From an uncultured Bacilli bacterium (GTDB taxonomy: Bacteria > Bacillota_I > Bacilli_A > RF39 > UBA660): 36,202 nt of DNA. Position 1 is the first letter of the stretch, and the number at the start of each line of letters is the position of its first letter. The notes under the pieces were generated by a model. The model ran no database searches. It had not been told where the DNA came from and saw only the letters and a program-made list of their open reading frames with translations. Shown here piece by piece: positions 5,750 to 28,144 of this stretch. The position numbers and the translations under genes were made by a program. The stretch spans positions 1-36,202 of the forward strand of contig CANQGF010000006.1 of the NCBI GenBank assembly GCA_947601485.1, written 5' to 3'.

Positions 5750-6499
5750 ATGAAAGTCTATGTTGATTTATTATTTGTTTTAAATTTAATATATGACTTT
5801 TTAATTTTAATGACTGTCAGTGTTACTTTAAAAAGAAAAGCTTCTTTTAAAAGAATATTCTTTGCATCTTTATGGGGTGCTTTAACGACTTTTATTATTT
5901 TTATTCCTTTAAATAAATATCTTTTACTAATTTTAAAAATATTAATGGGTCTTATTATGATTGTTATCGCCTATTCTTATAAAAATATTAAATATTTTTT
6001 AAATAATCTTTTATATTTGTATATGACTAGTGTTATTCTAGCTGGTTTTCTTTATTTTTTGAAAATCGAATTTAATAATTTAAGTTATTTACTTATTTTA
6101 AGTATAGCTCCTATAATTTTATATTTATATGTTAAAGAACAAAAGAATTTAAAAAAAGTAATAAATTATTATCGGGAAGTTATTATTACTTTAAAAAATA
6201 ATCAAATTATTACCTTAAAAGGATTTATTGACAGTGGTAATAAATTAAAAGATCCTGTTACTGGTAAATATATTATTTTAGTGAATAAAACTTTAATTGA
6301 AGGCATATATAATATAAGAAGTCCAATGTATGTACCAATTAAAACGGTCAATAAAAAAAGTTTACTTCCTTGCATTAGTATTAAAAATATTAAAATTGAT
6401 AATGTCATTTATAATAATTATTTACTTGGATTATCAGATGATTTAAAAAGTAATGATTTTGATTGTTTACTTAATTATCATTTATTGGAGGATATGTAA
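5750..6499 (+). CDS. spoIIGA: sporulation sigma-E factor processing peptidase SpoIIGA
   Basis: N-terminal multi-TM region (MKVYVDLLFVLNLIYDFLIL), aspartic protease motif GFIDSGNKLKDP, immediately upstream of sigE. Confidence 0.93.
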   Translation: MKVYVDLLFVLNLIYDFLILMTVSVTLKRKASFKRIFFASLWGALTTFIIFIPLNKYLLLILKILMGLIMIVIAYSYKNIKYFLNNLLYLYMTSVILAGFLYFLKIEFNNLSYLLILSIAPIILYLYVKEQKNLKKVINYYREVIITLKNNQIITLKGFIDSGNKLKDPVTGKYIILVNKTLIEGIYNIRSPMYVPIKTVNKKSLLPCISIKNIKIDNVIYNNYLLGLSDDLKSNDFDCLLNYHLLEDM

Positions 6500-7183
6500 A
6501 TGTTTAAAAAAATATTATTATTTTTAAAAAGGAAATATAGTGAATGCTTTTTTGTCGGAGCTACTGATAAATTACCCCCACCTTTACCTAAAAAAGAAGA
6601 ATTAGAATATTTAATTAGGGCTAAACAAGGTGATATTGAAGCCCGTAATATTTTAATTGAGCATAATTTAAGATTAGTAGTTTTCTTGGCTAAAAAGTAT
6701 GAAAATACTGGTTTTGATATTGAGGATTTAGTTTCGATTGGTTCGATTGGCTTAATTAAAGGGATTAATACTTATAAAATCGATAAAAATATTAAACTTG
6801 CTACTTACGCATCAAGATGTATTGCTAATGAAATACTGATGTTTTTAAGAAAAAATAAACGTAAAAAAGTAGAAATTAGTTTAGAAGAGACTCTTAATTA
6901 TGATGCGGAAGGTAATGAATTAAGACTTGAAGATATTTTAGGAACGGAACAAGATGTAGTACCAAAGGAATTTGAAAATACTTTAGATAAAGAACTTTTA
7001 AAAAGAGAAATTGCTACTTTAGATAGTAGAGAAAAAGAAATAATGACTTTAAGATATGGTCTTAATAATCGAAGAGAGTATACCCAAAAAGAAGTAGCAG
7101 AAATGCTTGGTATTAGTCAATCATATATATCTAGAATTGAAAAGAAAATTGTAAAAAGACTTCAAAATATTATGAAAATATGA
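6500..7183 (+). CDS. sigE: RNA polymerase sporulation sigma factor SigE with pro-sequence
   Basis: FVGATDKLPPPLPKKEELEYL..., sigma70 regions 2 and 4 (NLRLVVFLAKKYENTG, YASRCIANEILMFLR, ISQSYISRIEKKI). Confidence 0.96.
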   Translation: MFKKILLFLKRKYSECFFVGATDKLPPPLPKKEELEYLIRAKQGDIEARNILIEHNLRLVVFLAKKYENTGFDIEDLVSIGSIGLIKGINTYKIDKNIKLATYASRCIANEILMFLRKNKRKKVEISLEETLNYDAEGNELRLEDILGTEQDVVPKEFENTLDKELLKREIATLDSREKEIMTLRYGLNNRREYTQKEVAEMLGISQSYISRIEKKIVKRLQNIMKI

Positions 7184-7192
7184 AGTCTTTTT
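7154..7192 (+). terminator. intrinsic terminator overlapping the 3' end of sigE
   Basis: AAAAGACTTCA ... TGAAGTCTTTTT; right arm begins with the sigE TGA stop codon. Confidence 0.75.
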
Positions 7193-7239
7193 ATTTTAAT
7201 TGAAATATGTTAAAATAAATTCCTAATTAGGGTGATATT

Positions 7240-8475
7240 ATGGATTTAAGAATTCTTTTTTATGAAGATGTTTTAAAAGAGTTAGAATATTTAAAAAATA
7301 ATTATCCTTTTAAAAAAATGGATGCTCCTAAAACTTTTTATGGCATAGATATTCCATATTATACTTTAGGAAGTGGCCCTAACCATTTAGTAGTAGTGGG
7401 TGGTACCCATGGATCTGAAATAATATCTGTTGATTTTGTTTTAAGACTAATGATGGGGATAGCTTGCAAATCTGATCCTTTTAATACCCTAAATTTAGAT
7501 GATTATACATTCCATTTTATCCCTGTCCACAATCCCGAAGGATACATTATATCTTCATCGGTAATTAATACTTTAATTAATTCTAAATCTAGTAGCAAGG
7601 ATATTGAAAGTATAGCTAGAGCTTATTATCTTAACTATATGCTTGATGATTTAAAGGCCATCAATTATCCAAACGATAAAAAGCAAAAATTACATCAAAA
7701 ATTTTTTGCTGATGCTACTTATAAATGTATAAGTGAAAAGTATCATGATTTAAGAGAAAATGTTAAAAAGATTTATGATAATGAGGCTATTCCTAAAGGT
7801 AGCATGGTTATTCATCGAGGTAATGGTTTAGGGATAGAAACTAATCGAACTAATTTATTTTATACTCTTAATAAAGATTGTGATTGTTATGGCCCTTTAA
7901 GATACAATAATATTTTAAATAATATGGAAGGTCCTTTAGGAAGCATTCCCAAAGAAGATATCATTGAAAATATCTTTTTAAAAAATTTATTAAATAAATT
8001 ATATAAGGAAAAATTATATTGTGGTTTTATTACTTATCATTCTGCGGGTGGAGAAGTATATGCTTATTTAAGTGATGATGATGAATTATTATGTGATCAA
8101 TCATTAATAGACTATGAACAAAAATATCGGTTTAATGTTATCAATCATCTTTTGGCCAAAAACTATCAAGAAAATACTAAAAGTGAATTAATAAAAGATG
8201 GATACCAAATCCAAAACAGTGGTAGTATTAAAGATTATGATGAATATTTAAGATTATTATATCCTGCTACTTTATTAATTGAATTATCGCCTTTACTTGG
8301 TAATCCTTTAGGTCCTTATGCTTTACAAAGTAATTATGAAGACACTATTAATAGTAATCTAAAAGCTTTTTCTAATTATGCTAAATTAGTTAAACAATAT
8401 AAAAGCTTAATGTACAAGAGTGAATATGTTTTTGATGCAGAAGTATCTAAAAGAATGTTAAAAAATAGATATTGA
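7240..8475 (+). CDS. M14-family zinc carboxypeptidase-like protein
   Basis: HGSE zinc motif (VVVGGTHGSE), HNPEGY, TYHSAGGEVYAY, LLIELSPLLG. Confidence 0.8.
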   Translation: MDLRILFYEDVLKELEYLKNNYPFKKMDAPKTFYGIDIPYYTLGSGPNHLVVVGGTHGSEIISVDFVLRLMMGIACKSDPFNTLNLDDYTFHFIPVHNPEGYIISSSVINTLINSKSSSKDIESIARAYYLNYMLDDLKAINYPNDKKQKLHQKFFADATYKCISEKYHDLRENVKKIYDNEAIPKGSMVIHRGNGLGIETNRTNLFYTLNKDCDCYGPLRYNNILNNMEGPLGSIPKEDIIENIFLKNLLNKLYKEKLYCGFITYHSAGGEVYAYLSDDDELLCDQSLIDYEQKYRFNVINHLLAKNYQENTKSELIKDGYQIQNSGSIKDYDEYLRLLYPATLLIELSPLLGNPLGPYALQSNYEDTINSNLKAFSNYAKLVKQYKSLMYKSEYVFDAEVSKRMLKNRY

Positions 8476-8521
8476 ATAAAAAGAATTAAAAAGTGCCATA
8501 ATTTAGTTGAAAGGAATAGTT

Positions 8522-9298
8522 ATGGCAAGATATAAAGTTGATATAACGGGTATAAATACTAATGATTTAGAAGTTTTAAATAAAGATACTTCTGATAAAT
8601 TATTTGAAAGATATCATAATGGGGACGCAACCGCTAAAGAAGAATTAATTAATGGTAATTTAAGATTAGTTTTGTCAACAATTCAAAGATTTAGTAATTC
8701 AAAATTTAATATGGATGATTTATTTCAAGTTGGAGTAATTGGATTAATTAAAGCGATTGAGAATTTTGATACTTCTTTAAATCTTCGCTTATCTACTTAT
8801 GCAGTGCCTTTAATTTTGGGAGAAGTTAAAAGATATATTAGAGATAATACAGAAGTTAGAGTAAGTAGAAGTATTAAAGATTTAGCTTATAAAATAGTTC
8901 GTTTTCAAGATGATTATATGAGTGAACATGGAATATTACCCACCAATGATATTATTGCTAAATCTTTAGGAATTGAAGAATATGAAATTGCTTATGCTCT
9001 AGATTCTTTGAAAGATCCTATGAGTATTTTTGAACCAATATATAATGATGGTGGTGATACCATTTATTTATCTGATCAAATTGCTGATACTAAAGATTTA
9101 GCTAGTGATAAAGATATGTTAATTTCTTTAAGAAGGGCTTTGCAAAAAATAAAAGAAAGAGAAAAACAAATACTAATATCTAGATTTATTGTTGGTAAAA
9201 CACAAATGGAAATTGCTGATATAATGGGTATTTCTCAAGCTCAAGTTTCCAGAATTGAAAAAAACGCGATTGAAAATGTGCGAAAATTAATTAAATAG
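8522..9298 (+). CDS. sigG: RNA polymerase sporulation sigma factor SigG
   Basis: MARYKVDITGINTNDLEVL, NGNLRLVLSTIQRF, LFEPIYNDGGDTIYLSDQI, GKTQMEIADIMGISQAQVSRIEK; SD GAAAGGA supports ATG 8522. Confidence 0.97.
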   Translation: MARYKVDITGINTNDLEVLNKDTSDKLFERYHNGDATAKEELINGNLRLVLSTIQRFSNSKFNMDDLFQVGVIGLIKAIENFDTSLNLRLSTYAVPLILGEVKRYIRDNTEVRVSRSIKDLAYKIVRFQDDYMSEHGILPTNDIIAKSLGIEEYEIAYALDSLKDPMSIFEPIYNDGGDTIYLSDQIADTKDLASDKDMLISLRRALQKIKEREKQILISRFIVGKTQMEIADIMGISQAQVSRIEKNAIENVRKLIK

Positions 9299-20456: not shown

Positions 20457-21434
20457 CTAAATATTGTTTTTTTCTCCTTCTTCTAACATTTTAGTAATAA
20501 ATAAACCGTAACCACTAGTTGGATTATCAACAATAACATGGGTTACAACACCAATAATTTTACCATTTTGCATAATTGGTGATCCACTCATTCCTTGAAC
20601 AACTCCACCTGTTTTATCTAATAAATTTTTATCTGTAATTTCAAAAGTAATATTTTTGGTATCACTAGTTTCATTGATTTTTTTGATTTTTATTTTAAAT
20701 TCTTCAACCTTTTCACCATCTAATACGGTATATAAAGTAGCATCTCCTATTTTAACATCATCTTTTGTACCAACCGGAACTAATTTTAAATCATTAATTC
20801 CTTTATTGTAAGTGCCAAAAATACCATGATTTGTATTTTTTATAATATTACCATACACCGTATTGTAATAATATTTAGCATTCTTACTGCCAGCTGTGCC
20901 AACTGCTGATTTATCAATAGAAACTATTTTATTTTTAAAAATTAGTCCTGTTTTAATTTCAACCATTTGTTTACTGCTGCTTTCAACAACCTCGTGACCT
21001 AAAGCCCCAAAAATTTTTGTTTCAGGATCAATATAAGTAAGTGTTCCAATTCCAAGAATACTATCTTTAACATACAAGCCAGTTTTATAAACGCCATCAT
21101 CTAATACTAAAGGAAGCATGGTATCATATTCTTTGTTACCTCTTCTATAAGTAACTTTAGCAACTCCTTCGCTCGTATATTTTTCGATTTCATTAGTTAA
21201 CTCATTTAAACTATTAATTTCGACGTTATTGATTTTTTCAATATAATCACCAACTTGTAAATTGGGGTTTCCTTTATTAAGTTTACCATCAATTTGATAG
21301 AAGCCTACAATTAAAACACCTTTACAGTCCAATTCTATCCCTAATGTATTTCCTCCTAAATAGATTTTATCAGAATAAGCGCTAACCTCTAAAGGCACTA
21401 AAAAAATGCAGAGAAATAATAATAATTTTTTCAT
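20457..21434 (-). CDS. spoIVB: SpoIVB peptidase (S55)
   Basis: PDZ region (QVGDYIEKINNVEINSLNEL), GALGHEVVE, GGVVQGMSGSPIMQNGKIIGVVTHV; SD AAGGTGAT before ATG at 21434. Confidence 0.93.
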   Translation of the reverse strand: MKKLLLFLCIFLVPLEVSAYSDKIYLGGNTLGIELDCKGVLIVGFYQIDGKLNKGNPNLQVGDYIEKINNVEINSLNELTNEIEKYTSEGVAKVTYRRGNKEYDTMLPLVLDDGVYKTGLYVKDSILGIGTLTYIDPETKIFGALGHEVVESSSKQMVEIKTGLIFKNKIVSIDKSAVGTAGSKNAKYYYNTVYGNIIKNTNHGIFGTYNKGINDLKLVPVGTKDDVKIGDATLYTVLDGEKVEEFKIKIKKINETSDTKNITFEITDKNLLDKTGGVVQGMSGSPIMQNGKIIGVVTHVIVDNPTSGYGLFITKMLEEGEKNNI

Positions 21435-21607
21435 TTTTATCACCTTACATTTTTATTATGGTTGATAGAGTTTAAAATAAAAAACCAATATATGGTTATT
21501 ACCAATTATTGGTTTGCTATAAAAAGGAGAAAAAACTTAACTTCTTTTTTCATTTGTTAATTATTTGTCAAATAAGAATAAATGTTTGTATTTTTATTAA
21601 AAAGTAC

Positions 21608-21662: not shown

Positions 21663-21815
21663 ATGAGAAAAACATTATTGAATTTAGGAGGGCTTATATT
21701 ATTTTATTTAGTATTTGTTTTTGGGATAATTCTCCTTAATATGCGCTTTAGAGAGCTTAATCAGGATATTAGTTTCAGCAATTTAAATAATTATAGCGAT
21801 ATTGTTATAAAGTAA
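21663..21815 (+). CDS. 50-aa single-TM membrane microprotein (not in the supplied ORF track)
   Basis: AGAAGGAGTGATATT-ATG SD/start; MRKTLLNLGGLILFYLVFVFGIILLNMRFRELNQDISFSNLNNYSDIVIK*. Confidence 0.65.
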   Translation: MRKTLLNLGGLILFYLVFVFGIILLNMRFRELNQDISFSNLNNYSDIVIK

Positions 21816-21880
21816 GTAAAGCACTAGTTAATTAATTGTTTTATTTAAAAAATGAGTATATAATTAATATGAGGGATAAT

Positions 21881-23008
21881 ATGAAAAAGAAAATATTGGT
21901 TATGTATGCTCGATACGGATCAGGTCATAAAGCCATTGCTGAATATGTAGCATCATACATTGCGACACATAATGATTTTGATGTAAAAATGATTGACATT
22001 ACTGACTATGGTAATATATTAGCTAAGTTTACTGTTAAAACCTTTGATTTTGTTTTAAATCATCATCATGAAATGCTTTTTAATATGGGTTATGAACTTG
22101 CTGATAATCGTCTTACTTCTTTAGGTAATGGTCTTTTAACTTCAAAATTTTATGATAGTAAAAAGTTAAGAGATGAAATAGTAACGTTTAATCCCGATGT
22201 TACTATATCTACTCATTTTTATTGCAGTAATTTAATTACTTATTATAATAAACAAGGTTTAATTAAAAGTCGATTATTTACAATTATTACTGATTATCGG
22301 GCTCATGAATTTTGGATTAAAAATAAACAGTTAGAAGATGGCTATATTGTTGGTAATAAAATGGTGAAGGAAGAATTAATTAAAAGGGGTGTAGATAGTA
22401 AAAAAATATATCCTTATGGACTTCCTTTAAATATTACTAAAATTAGTAATTTAGATAAGGAAGAAGTAATTTATCAAAGATATAAATTAAAAAATAATGT
22501 TAAAAATTATTTATTTTTTGGTGGCTCATCTAGTGGTAGTATGTATTATTATAATTATTTTAAAGCCATAGCTAGTTTGAATTTACCAGTTAATATTATT
22601 TTTATTTGTGGCAAGAATGCTAAATTGAAGAAAAAATGTGATGCTTATGTTAAAAAGAATCATATTGAAAATATTTTAGTCTTTGGTTATTCAACCGATG
22701 TTTTAAATTTAATGAAAATTAGTGATCTTGTTATTAGTAAGCCAGGCGGAGCAACTGTTACAGAATGTTTGGAAATGAAAGTACCAATGTTATTAGTTCC
22801 AGGTATTGGTGGTCAAGAAAAATATAATGCTAGATTTATTGCAAGTAAAAAATATGGTCTTAAAGTAAGAGGTGTTTGGTCTTTTAAACGTAAGTTAAAA
22901 AGAATTACTCGTAATCCATCTCTTTTAAAGAAAATGGAAGAAAGACTAAATTTGCTTGATAATAATGAATCAGTAGTTAAGATTAATAATTTAATTAAAA
23001 GAGTTTAA
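21881..23008 (+). CDS. UgtP/MGDG-synthase-like glycosyltransferase
   Basis: KILVMYARYGSGHKAIAEYVASYI; GT28-type C-terminus SDLVISKPGGATVTECLEMKVPMLLVPGIGGQE; GAGGGATAAT before ATG 21881. Confidence 0.87.
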   Translation: MKKKILVMYARYGSGHKAIAEYVASYIATHNDFDVKMIDITDYGNILAKFTVKTFDFVLNHHHEMLFNMGYELADNRLTSLGNGLLTSKFYDSKKLRDEIVTFNPDVTISTHFYCSNLITYYNKQGLIKSRLFTIITDYRAHEFWIKNKQLEDGYIVGNKMVKEELIKRGVDSKKIYPYGLPLNITKISNLDKEEVIYQRYKLKNNVKNYLFFGGSSSGSMYYYNYFKAIASLNLPVNIIFICGKNAKLKKKCDAYVKKNHIENILVFGYSTDVLNLMKISDLVISKPGGATVTECLEMKVPMLLVPGIGGQEKYNARFIASKKYGLKVRGVWSFKRKLKRITRNPSLLKKMEERLNLLDNNESVVKINNLIKRV

Positions 23009-23024: not shown

Positions 23025-24983
23025 ATGAGCAAAATAGAAGATAGTATAATTAATAATTTAAAAATATTAGCATTAGATATGATATCATCTTCTGGGAGTG
23101 GTGATGCTGGGATTATATTTTCCGGAGCCAATATTTTTTATGATTTGTTTATGAATCATTTAATATATGATCCCAATGATATTAATTTTATTAATAAAGA
23201 TCGTATTTTAGTGTCTAATCGTCTTTTACCATTATTATATAGTTGTAATTATTTATTTTACAAAGATATGTCTTTAGATGATTTAAAAGATTATAAAAGT
23301 TTTAAATCAGATTTAAGTGGTAATGCCAAAAAGAATAGTATCATCAATTATAGTAGCCTTTATAGTGGCGATGTTATATCATCCTCTGTTGGTATTGCCT
23401 TAGGCGAAAGATATTTAAAAAGTTTAGTTAATTTTGAAAACAATAAAAGTAAATTGGTTGATTTTAAAACTTATTGTGTTGTAACTTTAGAAGATCTAAT
23501 GAGTGGTATTGCTTATGAAGCAATGAGTTTTGCAAGTGCTCACGAATTAAATAATTTAATCTTTATTGTTATTAAAGATGAAGTTAGTAAAGATTCAAGT
23601 AATAAAGAAACTTTTAAAGAAGATTTAAAAGATCGTTTTATGTCTTTAAAATTTAATGTCGAGGAAATAAATGATAATTTAGGTACCATTGATGGTGCGA
23701 TTGCTGATGCTAAAGAAAGTAAAAAACCATCTGTTATAATAGTAAAAAGCCTTTATGGTAAATCTTCATCTATTGAAAATAGTAATAAATTATATAATAA
23801 ACCTTTAAATAAAGAAGAAATGGATAATTTAAGAAATAAATATCAAATTAATGCGCCCTTTGAAGTTAATAGTAATATAATTAATGAAATAAGAAAAACT
23901 ACTAGTAAACGTTTAAGTAAATATTTAATGAATTATCAAAGTCTAAAGCAAAATAGTATGGGTGATTTAAAAATTAGGGAAATAATTGATTTTCTAACTA
24001 AAGGCCATGTTGATATTGAACTTAATCCGGACAATATAAAAATTAATGATGAATATGAAGAAGAATTATTAAAAAGCAATAATCGAATATTAAATTTAGT
24101 TGCTAGTAAAAGTCCTTTTGTTTTAAGTGCTAGTGATGATAATTTTATTTATACTTTAAGTGAAATTAATAAAGCACAAATAATGACTAAAGAATGCCCT
24201 ATAGGAAGAAATATTTTAATTGGAAATCGACCTTTAGCTTTAGGAGGAATAACTTGTGGACTTGCTTTTTTAGGCTTTAAAGTTTTTGTTAGTACCCCTT
24301 TAGTTAATGAATCACTACTTAAAAGTTTTATTAAAATTAGTGCCTTAAATAATTTGGATATTACTTATATTTTTACAGATGATACTTTTACTAATGCCTA
24401 TTTAGATAATGAATATCATGCTGATAATGAATTAAATGATTTAAGAAGTATTAGTAATTTAGTTGTTTATCGTCCCGGTGATGTTAATGAAGTAATTGGT
24501 TCTTATTATACAATAGGTAAATTAAATAAAACTAGCGCTATAATTGTTGGTAGTAGTAGAGTGCCCAAATTAAAAGGAACAAATGAAAAATATGTTTTAG
24601 CAGGGGCATATCGTATCAAAAAAGAAAGTGATAAACTTGATGCAATCATTATTACAAGTGGTAGTGAAATTATTTTAGCTTTAAGAATTGTAGATGAGTT
24701 AAAAGATTTTAATTTATCTTTTAGAGTTGTTTCTATGCCATCAGCTAATTTATTTGCTATGCAAAGTGAAAAGTATCAAAAAATGCTTTTGCCTAATGAT
24801 GTTAAAACTTTTATACTAGAATTTAGTAATTCAAAATCTTTAGAAAAATATGCAACAAATAAGGACTACATATTTGGGGTAGATGACTTTTTTGTGGGAG
24901 GAACTAAAGAAGAAAAATTAAATTACTATCATCTTAATATAGATGCGATTAAGACTAAAATGATTGAATTATTAAAAAAATAA
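23025..24983 (+). CDS. transketolase-family protein lacking catalytic motifs (predicted pseudoenzyme)
   Basis: Collinear with transketolase over 652 aa (DRILVSN..., SGSEIILALRIVDEL, RVVSMPSANLFAMQSEKYQKMLLP), but SGHPG is SGDAG, GPLGQG is YSGDVIS, GDG is TLE, REHA/REFG is RPLA and GEDGPTHQP is absent. Confidence 0.85.
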   Translation: MSKIEDSIINNLKILALDMISSSGSGDAGIIFSGANIFYDLFMNHLIYDPNDINFINKDRILVSNRLLPLLYSCNYLFYKDMSLDDLKDYKSFKSDLSGNAKKNSIINYSSLYSGDVISSSVGIALGERYLKSLVNFENNKSKLVDFKTYCVVTLEDLMSGIAYEAMSFASAHELNNLIFIVIKDEVSKDSSNKETFKEDLKDRFMSLKFNVEEINDNLGTIDGAIADAKESKKPSVIIVKSLYGKSSSIENSNKLYNKPLNKEEMDNLRNKYQINAPFEVNSNIINEIRKTTSKRLSKYLMNYQSLKQNSMGDLKIREIIDFLTKGHVDIELNPDNIKINDEYEEELLKSNNRILNLVASKSPFVLSASDDNFIYTLSEINKAQIMTKECPIGRNILIGNRPLALGGITCGLAFLGFKVFVSTPLVNESLLKSFIKISALNNLDITYIFTDDTFTNAYLDNEYHADNELNDLRSISNLVVYRPGDVNEVIGSYYTIGKLNKTSAIIVGSSRVPKLKGTNEKYVLAGAYRIKKESDKLDAIIITSGSEIILALRIVDELKDFNLSFRVVSMPSANLFAMQSEKYQKMLLPNDVKTFILEFSNSKSLEKYATNKDYIFGVDDFFVGGTKEEKLNYYHLNIDAIKTKMIELLKK

Positions 24984-25049
24984 TTTCTTCGACACAAACT
25001 TACAATTATTTTAAAACTATTTTTATATAATAGTTTTAAGGTGATTAAA

Positions 25050-25466
25050 GTGAGAAGTTTTTATATATTTAAGATAAAAAATGAAATTAAAATATTAACT
25101 AAAGAGATACCTTATAACCTATTTAAAACAATCGATAATTTATATTATTTAGATAGTTCTAGTTTAGATGTCTCTTTTCAAATTTTTAATGATATCTTTG
25201 ATACTTTTGACATCTCATATATGAATAAAAGAATATATAATTTATTTAAAGATAATCGCCATTATCGTTATGAAAATAATACTCATATAATTGAAAATAA
25301 ATATCGTCCAGAAAATACTTATTTAAAAGTTTATAAATCACATATCTATCTTAAATCAGATGCCATTAATCCAACACTTTTAGTAAATTACTTAATGAGT
25401 GATAATTTATTTGTATGTGATTTTAAAAATAGAGATTACTTTTGGTTAAACGAGTTTGTTAGATAA
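25050..25466 (+). CDS. sirA: sporulation inhibitor of replication SirA-like protein
   Basis: N-terminal RSFYIFKIKNEI and C-terminal LFVCDFKNRDYFWLN resemble SirA; location directly after a tkt-family gene matches the Bacillus tkt-yneE(sirA) order. Confidence 0.7.
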   Translation: MRSFYIFKIKNEIKILTKEIPYNLFKTIDNLYYLDSSSLDVSFQIFNDIFDTFDISYMNKRIYNLFKDNRHYRYENNTHIIENKYRPENTYLKVYKSHIYLKSDAINPTLLVNYLMSDNLFVCDFKNRDYFWLNEFVR

Positions 25467-26764: not shown

Positions 26765-26851
26765 TTAGTAGAAAGAGTGTCAAATTAACCTCTTTTTTTC
26801 TTTTATTCAAATATAATATTTGTTACTATATTATTAAGTAGGATGATTAAT

Positions 26852-28144
26852 ATGTATCAAGATTATTTAAATGATATTTTTACTGATGCTTATAATAAAA
26901 TATTACCTTTAGTAGAATCTTTAAATAAAAAAGGTGTTTGTCCCTGCTGTGGAGGTATTTTTTTAGGTGGTGTTTGTAAATATTGCCATACTCCTAATTC
27001 ATCTTTACAAAATAATGTTCAAAAAATAGAAAATATTTTAACTATGGTTAGTGATAGTTTAGAAAATCTTCCAATAGAAAGAGTAGAATATAATGAGCTT
27101 TTTACATTATTATTAAAAATTAAGAATGTTAAAATTGACATAGTAGATAAACTTATAGCCAAATATCATTATGAAGAAGTTATTAAAAAAATTTATGAGC
27201 AAATAGTTTCTAAAGGTTATCAAGGAGAATCGTTAGATAAAAGCGAAATCTCAGTTAGTGAAGCTTTAATTAGTCAAAATTATTCTTTTTCTAGAGATAA
27301 AGATGTAGTTTTTAATTTAGCTTCAATATATATTAAAAAAATAATACTTAATTTTCTAAAAGATGATAAAGAATCAGTGATTAGTTATGACTTTTTTGCT
27401 GATTTAATTAAAGAATTTATGGAAGAACAAATTAAATTTGTATATCAAAATAGTAACTGTGAAATAAAAGAAGGTAAAGAAGAAGAGGAAGAAAATATGA
27501 CTTTTGGTGCGGCTTCTTATAATAATGTTACTCTTTATGATTATGATATTAAAACAATGTATTATGAAGGTAGTGAACATTTACTTAATACGATATTCCA
27601 TGAATTTACACATGTAAGACAATATGGTATTACTTATAAAAAGAAGTGTGTTTCACCCTTTGAATTTTTGGAATTAAAAGAAGAAATAATAAGTAAATTT
27701 GTTCCTTTTTATTATAAAGAAAATTATGAACATTTATCTTATGAACTAGAAGCTTTTTATTGTGGCTTTAGAGATGAAAGAATTGCCCTTAGTAATATTG
27801 GAATTAGTTTAAATGAAGAATCAAATAAGAGAGTAGATGCTATATTAAAAGAATATGAAGATGCCTTTTTAAATACAAAAAGAACTTTACATGGGAAAAA
27901 TGTAGATATTAATCAATTATTCGAAAATGTTTTAAAAAGTAGAAGTTTTTTATTAAATAATTATCCTTGTTTGAAAAATTTATATAAGATAGAAAATGGT
28001 AAAGTAGTAAGAAAAACTAATGAAGAATTACAAAGAACTTTAGCTCAAATATTAAGTGATGATCATATTAGTGAAGAAGATAAAAATAATTTTAGATTAA
28101 TGTTTAATTTAGATAGGGTAAATCATAAATTAACTTCTATATGA
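26852..28144 (+). CDS. zinc-ribbon plus HExxH putative metalloprotease of unknown family
   Basis: CPCCGGIFLGGVCKYC zinc ribbon; NTIFHEFTHVRQYG gluzincin-like motif; downstream YELEAFYCGFRDE could supply a third ligand. Confidence 0.7.
   Translation: MYQDYLNDIFTDAYNKILPLVESLNKKGVCPCCGGIFLGGVCKYCHTPNSSLQNNVQKIENILTMVSDSLENLPIERVEYNELFTLLLKIKNVKIDIVDKLIAKYHYEEVIKKIYEQIVSKGYQGESLDKSEISVSEALISQNYSFSRDKDVVFNLASIYIKKIILNFLKDDKESVISYDFFADLIKEFMEEQIKFVYQNSNCEIKEGKEEEEENMTFGAASYNNVTLYDYDIKTMYYEGSEHLLNTIFHEFTHVRQYGITYKKKCVSPFEFLELKEEIISKFVPFYYKENYEHLSYELEAFYCGFRDERIALSNIGISLNEESNKRVDAILKEYEDAFLNTKRTLHGKNVDINQLFENVLKSRSFLLNNYPCLKNLYKIENGKVVRKTNEELQRTLAQILSDDHISEEDKNNFRLMFNLDRVNHKLTSI

Follow-up and report, generated by a model that had tools for sequence, protein, structure and literature searches.

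A full-length transketolase homologue without an active site, under purifying selection beside sirA in a genus of uncultured Bacilli

The tkt* locus and its conservation in the genus

The window analysed here is a stretch of 36,202 nucleotides from an uncultured Bacilli bacterium (contig CANQGF010000006.1, assembly GCA_947601485.1). It carries a transketolase homologue, which we call tkt*, whose 652 codons start with ATG behind a good ribosome-binding site (AGGAG). Its position, its domains and its neighbours are given in Table 1. The first-pass annotation, made from the sequence alone, described the protein as collinear with transketolase over its whole length, and this is what we find. The profile of bacterial transketolase, TIGR00232, matches residues 8-649 (E 7.8e-99) with 331.8 bits, less than half of the curated equivalog cut-off of 682 bits. 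The best match to a transketolase in the PDB has an E-value of 7.6e-71, and a profile-profile alignment of the tkt* proteins of the genus with active transketolases covers 643 columns (probability 100, E 2e-128). The PP, Pyr and C-terminal domains are colinear with those of the transketolase family, and PF00456 and PF22613 both score above their cut-offs; the Pyr domain is recognised by PF02779 only at E 0.033. The curated score for DXS is 26 bits, with a cut-off of 466. AlphaFold models of the protein from the single sequence and from a two-sequence alignment have mean pLDDT of 32 and 38. Judging by its sequence, tkt* has probably kept the fold and the dimer of transketolase.

Table 1. Features of the tkt* locus (window coordinates).
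Feature	Position	Strand	Remarks
50-aa membrane-type ORF	21663..21815	+	upstream; conserved across the genus and in other genera
ugtP-like glycosyltransferase	21836..23008	+	directly upstream, 16-nt gap; beside tkt* in nearly all of the genus
tkt*, 652-aa homologue of transketolase, full-length but lacking the active site	23025..24983	+	profile, PDB and site alignment
Former TPP pyrophosphate-binding (PP) domain, residues ~1-319	23025..23981	+	limits from E. coli TktA numbering; PF00456 at residues 5-295
Former pyrimidine-binding (Pyr) domain, residues ~320-515	23982..24569	+	Glu411 to Pro403, H473 to Tyr464
Transketolase C-terminal domain	24570..24980	+	PF22613 at residues 527-632, E 8.7e-21
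sirA promoter	24988..25031	+	Spo0A-box-like TTCGACA 24988-24994; TATAAT 25026-25031, 31 nt further on
sirA homologue	25050..25466	+	PF10747 26.1 bits, cut-off 26; family profile against PDB 4tps SirA, E 1.5e-5

Genomes in this dataset are drafts, mostly 70-95% complete. Within the genus, which is one of gut-type Bacilli, 35 of the 37 genomes (that of the window counted) carry tkt*, always as an open frame, with lengths from 552 to 655 residues. Identities are 42-69% over the full length, but drop to 32-36% for four species in which the protein is shorter. The two exceptions, G021 and G036, also lack ygjP, and G036 lacks sirA as well, so the assembly may miss the locus, or the whole block may have been deleted; a missing locus and a specific loss of tkt* are equally likely. 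Gene order around tkt* is largely fixed in the genus: orf50, ugtP-like, tkt*, sirA, ygjP, spoU, rimM, trmD. A scan of contigs with the window protein alone returned one relative, labelled 'uncultured Bacilli bacterium', with a sample name hinting at rabbit. Elsewhere in the window, at 26843-28144, lies a fast-evolving ORF of 433 residues without family match (23-47% identity in the genus), which is missing from the same place in some species.

The first-pass annotation had considered that true transketolase activity might have moved to another gene. We found no canonical transketolase in the 25 genus genomes searched with PF00456, and no second transketolase in the window genome, which is 94.7% complete and 1.37 Mb in size. 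Its only other PF00456 match is a weak one (32 bits) to a frame of 624 residues, which by its length and score is presumably DXS. As far as the examined genomes go, relocation of the activity is thus ruled out.

Loss of the active site and selection on the protein

To map the active site, we compared the window protein with the sequence of E. coli TktA at 22 cofactor, metal, catalytic and substrate positions, chosen in view of transketolase structures. These positions are intact or nearly so in active relatives; in the window protein 21 of the 22 are replaced, according to two independent alignments. The ligands of TPP and Mg2+ have become L155 (from D155), D185 (from N185) and V187, a conservative change from I187; D155 is gone from every member of the genus and N185 from most. 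The catalytic Glu411 is P403 in the window protein, and no genus member has a Glu there. All residues for substrate binding and proton relay are replaced: H26 by D27, H66 by R66, H100 by N100, H261 by Y257, R358 by L349, S385 by Y376, H461 by D452, D469 by L460, H473 by Y464 and R520 by S510. Further changes affect G114 (L112), L116 (S114), E160 (S160), F434 (P425) and F437 (N428). In the loops of the PP domain, the former H26, H66, H100, G114, D155, E160, N185 and H261 are all altered. Only D381 (D372 in the window protein) is retained. Replacement is comparable in all 34 genus relatives. The lost motifs that the first-pass annotation had listed are right in every item when set against the actual TktA sequence.

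One might imagine that the protein is still a transketolase whose cofactor ligands sit at shifted positions, given its strong overall homology and the retention of RPE and RpiB, which implies that pentose phosphates are still handled. We find this barely credible. An HMM-HMM alignment of two separately aligned groups, the genus and the active enzymes, gives the same residue at every site as the first map, and no GDG..N cofactor motif was found elsewhere in the window protein. Moreover, the positions of the old site vary freely among relatives and several of its loops are missing from the short forms. The activity of transketolase has almost certainly been lost, and from its residues tkt* would be unable to bind either thiamine diphosphate or sugar phosphates.

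The intact frame had been taken in the first-pass annotation as a sign of selection, and the comparison among relatives that it proposed bears this out. In 20 close pairs, at synonymous distances of 0.2-0.9, dN/dS of tkt* (Nei-Gojobori) is 0.03-0.17, and pooled values are low in every domain (PP 0.139, Pyr 0.133, C 0.112); such estimates are approximate where synonymous distance exceeds 1. Hence, purifying selection acts on the tkt* protein. The protein is an enzyme homologue without the conserved catalytic motifs and kept by selection, i.e. a pseudoenzyme. Could the frame nevertheless belong to a decaying gene, open by chance on its way to loss? The protein does change more quickly than those encoded around it, with 42-69% identity where most values for sirA, ugtP and ygjP are 60-83%, and other genera of the order have lost tkt outright. 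Yet, simulated neutral drift of the frame accumulates about 5 stops already at 0.05 changes per site and would put stops in nearly all copies, and all 35 frames are open; dN/dS is low at substantial synonymous distances, and constraint is even over the three domains. Decay is therefore refuted for the genus and highly improbable as a general account, although it may still hold where a single species is concerned, as with G178 or G081. The frame might also be kept for the DNA itself, as a segment holding the promoter of sirA or another regulatory element, and a conserved sirA promoter does follow immediately 3' of tkt*. But this promoter is not part of the frame, being placed in the gap behind it, and selection at the level of amino acids along the whole frame, with its uniform dN/dS, makes such a cause most unlikely.

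Constraint is distributed very differently from that of an active enzyme. The 22 former functional positions have a mean entropy of 2.09 bits in tkt*, against 1.42 elsewhere; in active relatives of the family the values are 0.12 and 1.54. In four species the protein is down to 552-554 residues, having lost segments at residues 19-26, about 95-113, 188-194, 246-263, 276-286, 455-464 and 617-631, and most of these are loops that bore or flanked former active-site residues (H26, H100/G114, N185, H261, D469/H473). In the PP domain, 21 columns are conserved at 95% or more within the genus, where the active set has 52; in the C-terminal domain the genus has 26 such columns and the broader active set 6. 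Since the active set spans far more divergence than the genus, these counts tell us only how the domains stand relative to one another. Thirty-nine columns are invariant across 26 genus members. Most of them are glycines, structural residues or residues already present in active relatives, e.g. the frozen Y344, K339, K362, K522 and F596 are also found in active enzymes of genus g33. The frozen F78, K141 and A526 are novelties, or near-novelties, of the genus.

These new invariant residues might point to a new enzyme that gave up the transketolase reaction and acquired a different activity, in a pocket that is new or remodelled; pseudoenzymes may indeed have migrated catalytic residues, as noted in a review (PMC10211241). 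We consider this unlikely. The positions of the old cleft are the most variable part of the protein and its loops are cut out of the short forms, most of the invariant residues belong to the classes just named, and independent losses in other genera took place without the new residues.

Origin of tkt* in the order and its relation to sirA

In this dataset, one family of the order has at least 75 genera. Of 146 genomes sampled from the order, 20 carry a degenerate transketolase and 30 none; the other 96 have one that is active by its sites or is known from its PF00456 match. We class as putatively active the copies with the sites present or, in genomes covered by PF00456 alone, with a high score. 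In most of 40 loci of the order outside the genus, tkt lies directly upstream of sirA, whether active or degenerate. Since most sampled genera share this arrangement, the window gene sits at the ancestral locus, and conversion would therefore have occurred in place, without a duplicate. The gene order tkt-sirA of Bacillus agrees with this. The earlier suggestion that an ancestral tkt locus had been turned into something else is thus supported.

Degeneration is not restricted to the genus. Full-length degenerate copies occur in genera g54, g87, g77, g46, g66, g90 and g41; g45 has one that is shorter. Two genera are of mixed state: in g77 and g66, G195 (19 of 22 sites) and G144 (21 sites) have kept the active site beside degenerate species. 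On the gene tree it takes six changes of state to explain the pattern, at least five of them forced by strongly supported branches, and seven clades are degenerate if loss is taken as irreversible. The tree thus implies between five and seven separate losses of the active site in the order. The degenerate copies of g77 and g54 have dN/dS of 0.13-0.27 at synonymous distances above 1, which makes these values approximate. Outside the genus of the window, estimates of selection after loss are for these two genera, the degenerate copies of G178, G081, G117, G086 and G167 being single-species cases.

In G186, of the otherwise active genus g33, tkt is broken into two frames with stretches of 124 and 589 residues (locus L100), which is either a recent inactivation or an assembly error. 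Outside the order, G198 of family f15, with a genome of ~0.7 Mb that reads TGA as Trp, has a transketolase-like frame of ~616 residues (locus L132) in which N185 alone is left of the 22 sites; this is probably a further pseudoenzyme of independent origin, from a mycoplasma-like lineage. Split transketolases of other orders, with N-terminal pieces of about 270-300 residues, were set aside as a different and known arrangement.

Why the order should lose this activity so often may be related to its metabolism. No transaldolase (PF00923) was found in any of the 146 genomes searched, which makes that enzyme useless as a correlate of transketolase state, and RPE and RpiB are nearly universal in the order, independently of that state. 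In such a background the transketolase reaction may have been of marginal use and readily lost.

The gene downstream of tkt* matches both the SirA family PF10747 and the solved SirA structure 4tps. Its start is probably the GTG at 25050, because the alternative GTG at 25041 overlaps the ribosome-binding site and relatives begin with MRxFYxFKI. In B. subtilis, SirA is made under the control of Spo0A~P and inhibits DNA replication through DnaA (PMC4285326). The first-pass annotation had raised a link of this kind, in which tkt* would act with the adjacent sirA as a regulator that blocks DNA replication at the entry into sporulation. The two genes are strictly adjacent within the genus and often so across the order, and Spo0A, SpoIIGA, a sigE-type sigma factor and SpoIVB are all present. 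But sirA has a promoter of its own. An exact Spo0A box is found in the gap between tkt* and sirA in 8 of the 35 species, with 0.1 expected, and a box with at most one mismatch in 26 of them, with 3.2 expected; all 30 scored loci have a -10-like hexamer ahead of the ribosome-binding site, mostly placed 31 or 21 nt after the box where one is found. With such a promoter, sirA is probably switched on by itself, and some species (loci L022, L024, L025) have a terminator-like hairpin after tkt*.

The two genes also come and go independently. Over the 146 genomes, sirA is absent from 8 of the 30 without transketolase, hence present in 22 of them, from 2 of the 20 with a degenerate copy and from 13 of the remaining 96, and there is no association between sirA and degenerate tkt (Fisher p = 1.0 for genomes with a degenerate copy against the others that have a transketolase). 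Furthermore, canonical tkt stands beside sirA in most sampled genera, so the adjacency predates the loss of the active site, and an inherited neighbourhood is weak evidence of a shared role. A function of tkt* with SirA, DnaA or sporulation thus seems quite improbable, and this part of the earlier interpretation is not supported. As for sirA itself, a Spo0A-box-like element and a TATAAT before the gene across the genus are consistent with control by Spo0A as in B. subtilis, and Spo0A was found in 21 of 21 genomes. The window also contains genes for the SpoIVB peptidase, SpoIIGA and two sporulation-type sigma factors (20457-21443 and 5750-9298).

A proposed non-catalytic role of transketolase

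What remains of the first-pass interpretation is a full-length pseudoenzyme at the ancestral tkt-sirA locus, kept by selection in genomes without a canonical copy. We think it somewhat probable that this pseudoenzyme, a descendant of the ancestral single-copy tkt, is kept for a non-catalytic role as scaffold or regulator, a role that would itself be ancestral. The single-copy tkt was converted in place into a protein that, by its sequence, binds neither cofactor nor substrate, and selection shows that it is retained for another job, which would be carried out by protein-protein contacts through its intact three-domain body. The non-catalytic role would have existed beside catalysis in the active enzyme of the order and outlived the chemistry. 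Two observations lead us to this: the site was lost five to seven times with the frame kept, and many of the frozen residues are already found in active enzymes of the nearest genera. Loss of both the cofactor and the substrate sites argues against a sensor of sugar phosphates at the old site, and the free drift of that site, together with the deletion of its loops, against a remodelled activity there. The supposed second role must be dispensable in some lineages, since about one in five genomes of the order (30 of 146) carry no transketolase.

Pseudoenzymes usually arise from a duplicate, with the parent gene keeping the job. With the bacterial transketolases of TIGR00232, such as B. subtilis Tkt and E. 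coli TktA, tkt* shares colinearity, three domains and the ancestral position beside sirA, but it lacks the residues for TPP, Mg2+, catalysis and substrate, and scores well below the family cut-off. A parallel is human TKTL1, a relative of transketolase believed to be without its activity; the corresponding model, TKT-delta38, binds no cofactor and is inactive (PMC3485151). Yet, TKTL1 is a duplicated gene that coexists with an active TKT, and it is damaged mainly by a single deletion of 38 residues, whereas the tkt* event is bacterial and recurrent, no active copy is present and the whole site has drifted. In B. subtilis, PykA takes part in replication, and GapA and enolase in RNA degradation (PMC9009071, PMC8152036). 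These are also central-carbon enzymes with non-catalytic roles through partners, but they stay active, whereas in tkt* only the putative second role would remain. The iRhoms, rhomboid pseudoproteases described in PMC3149277 as conserved, devoid of catalytic residues and acting through protein contacts, have another fold and are eukaryotic; the analogy is one of logic only. We found no earlier report of a bacterial transketolase pseudoenzyme in the literature searched, whose coverage is incomplete.

These results are compatible with a broader proposal, which to us stands at an even balance: the transketolase of this order would have a second, non-catalytic function, of such weight that lineages shedding the chemistry would repeatedly keep a pure pseudoenzyme, without duplication. 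Within one order, a single-copy housekeeping enzyme has apparently turned into a pseudoenzyme at its own locus on several occasions, and some genera include both states. These conversions provide a natural series of separation-of-function mutants, whose conserved residues would point to a putative non-catalytic role of transketolase. Meanwhile, annotation by homology would credit organisms with a working non-oxidative pentose phosphate pathway that they do not have.
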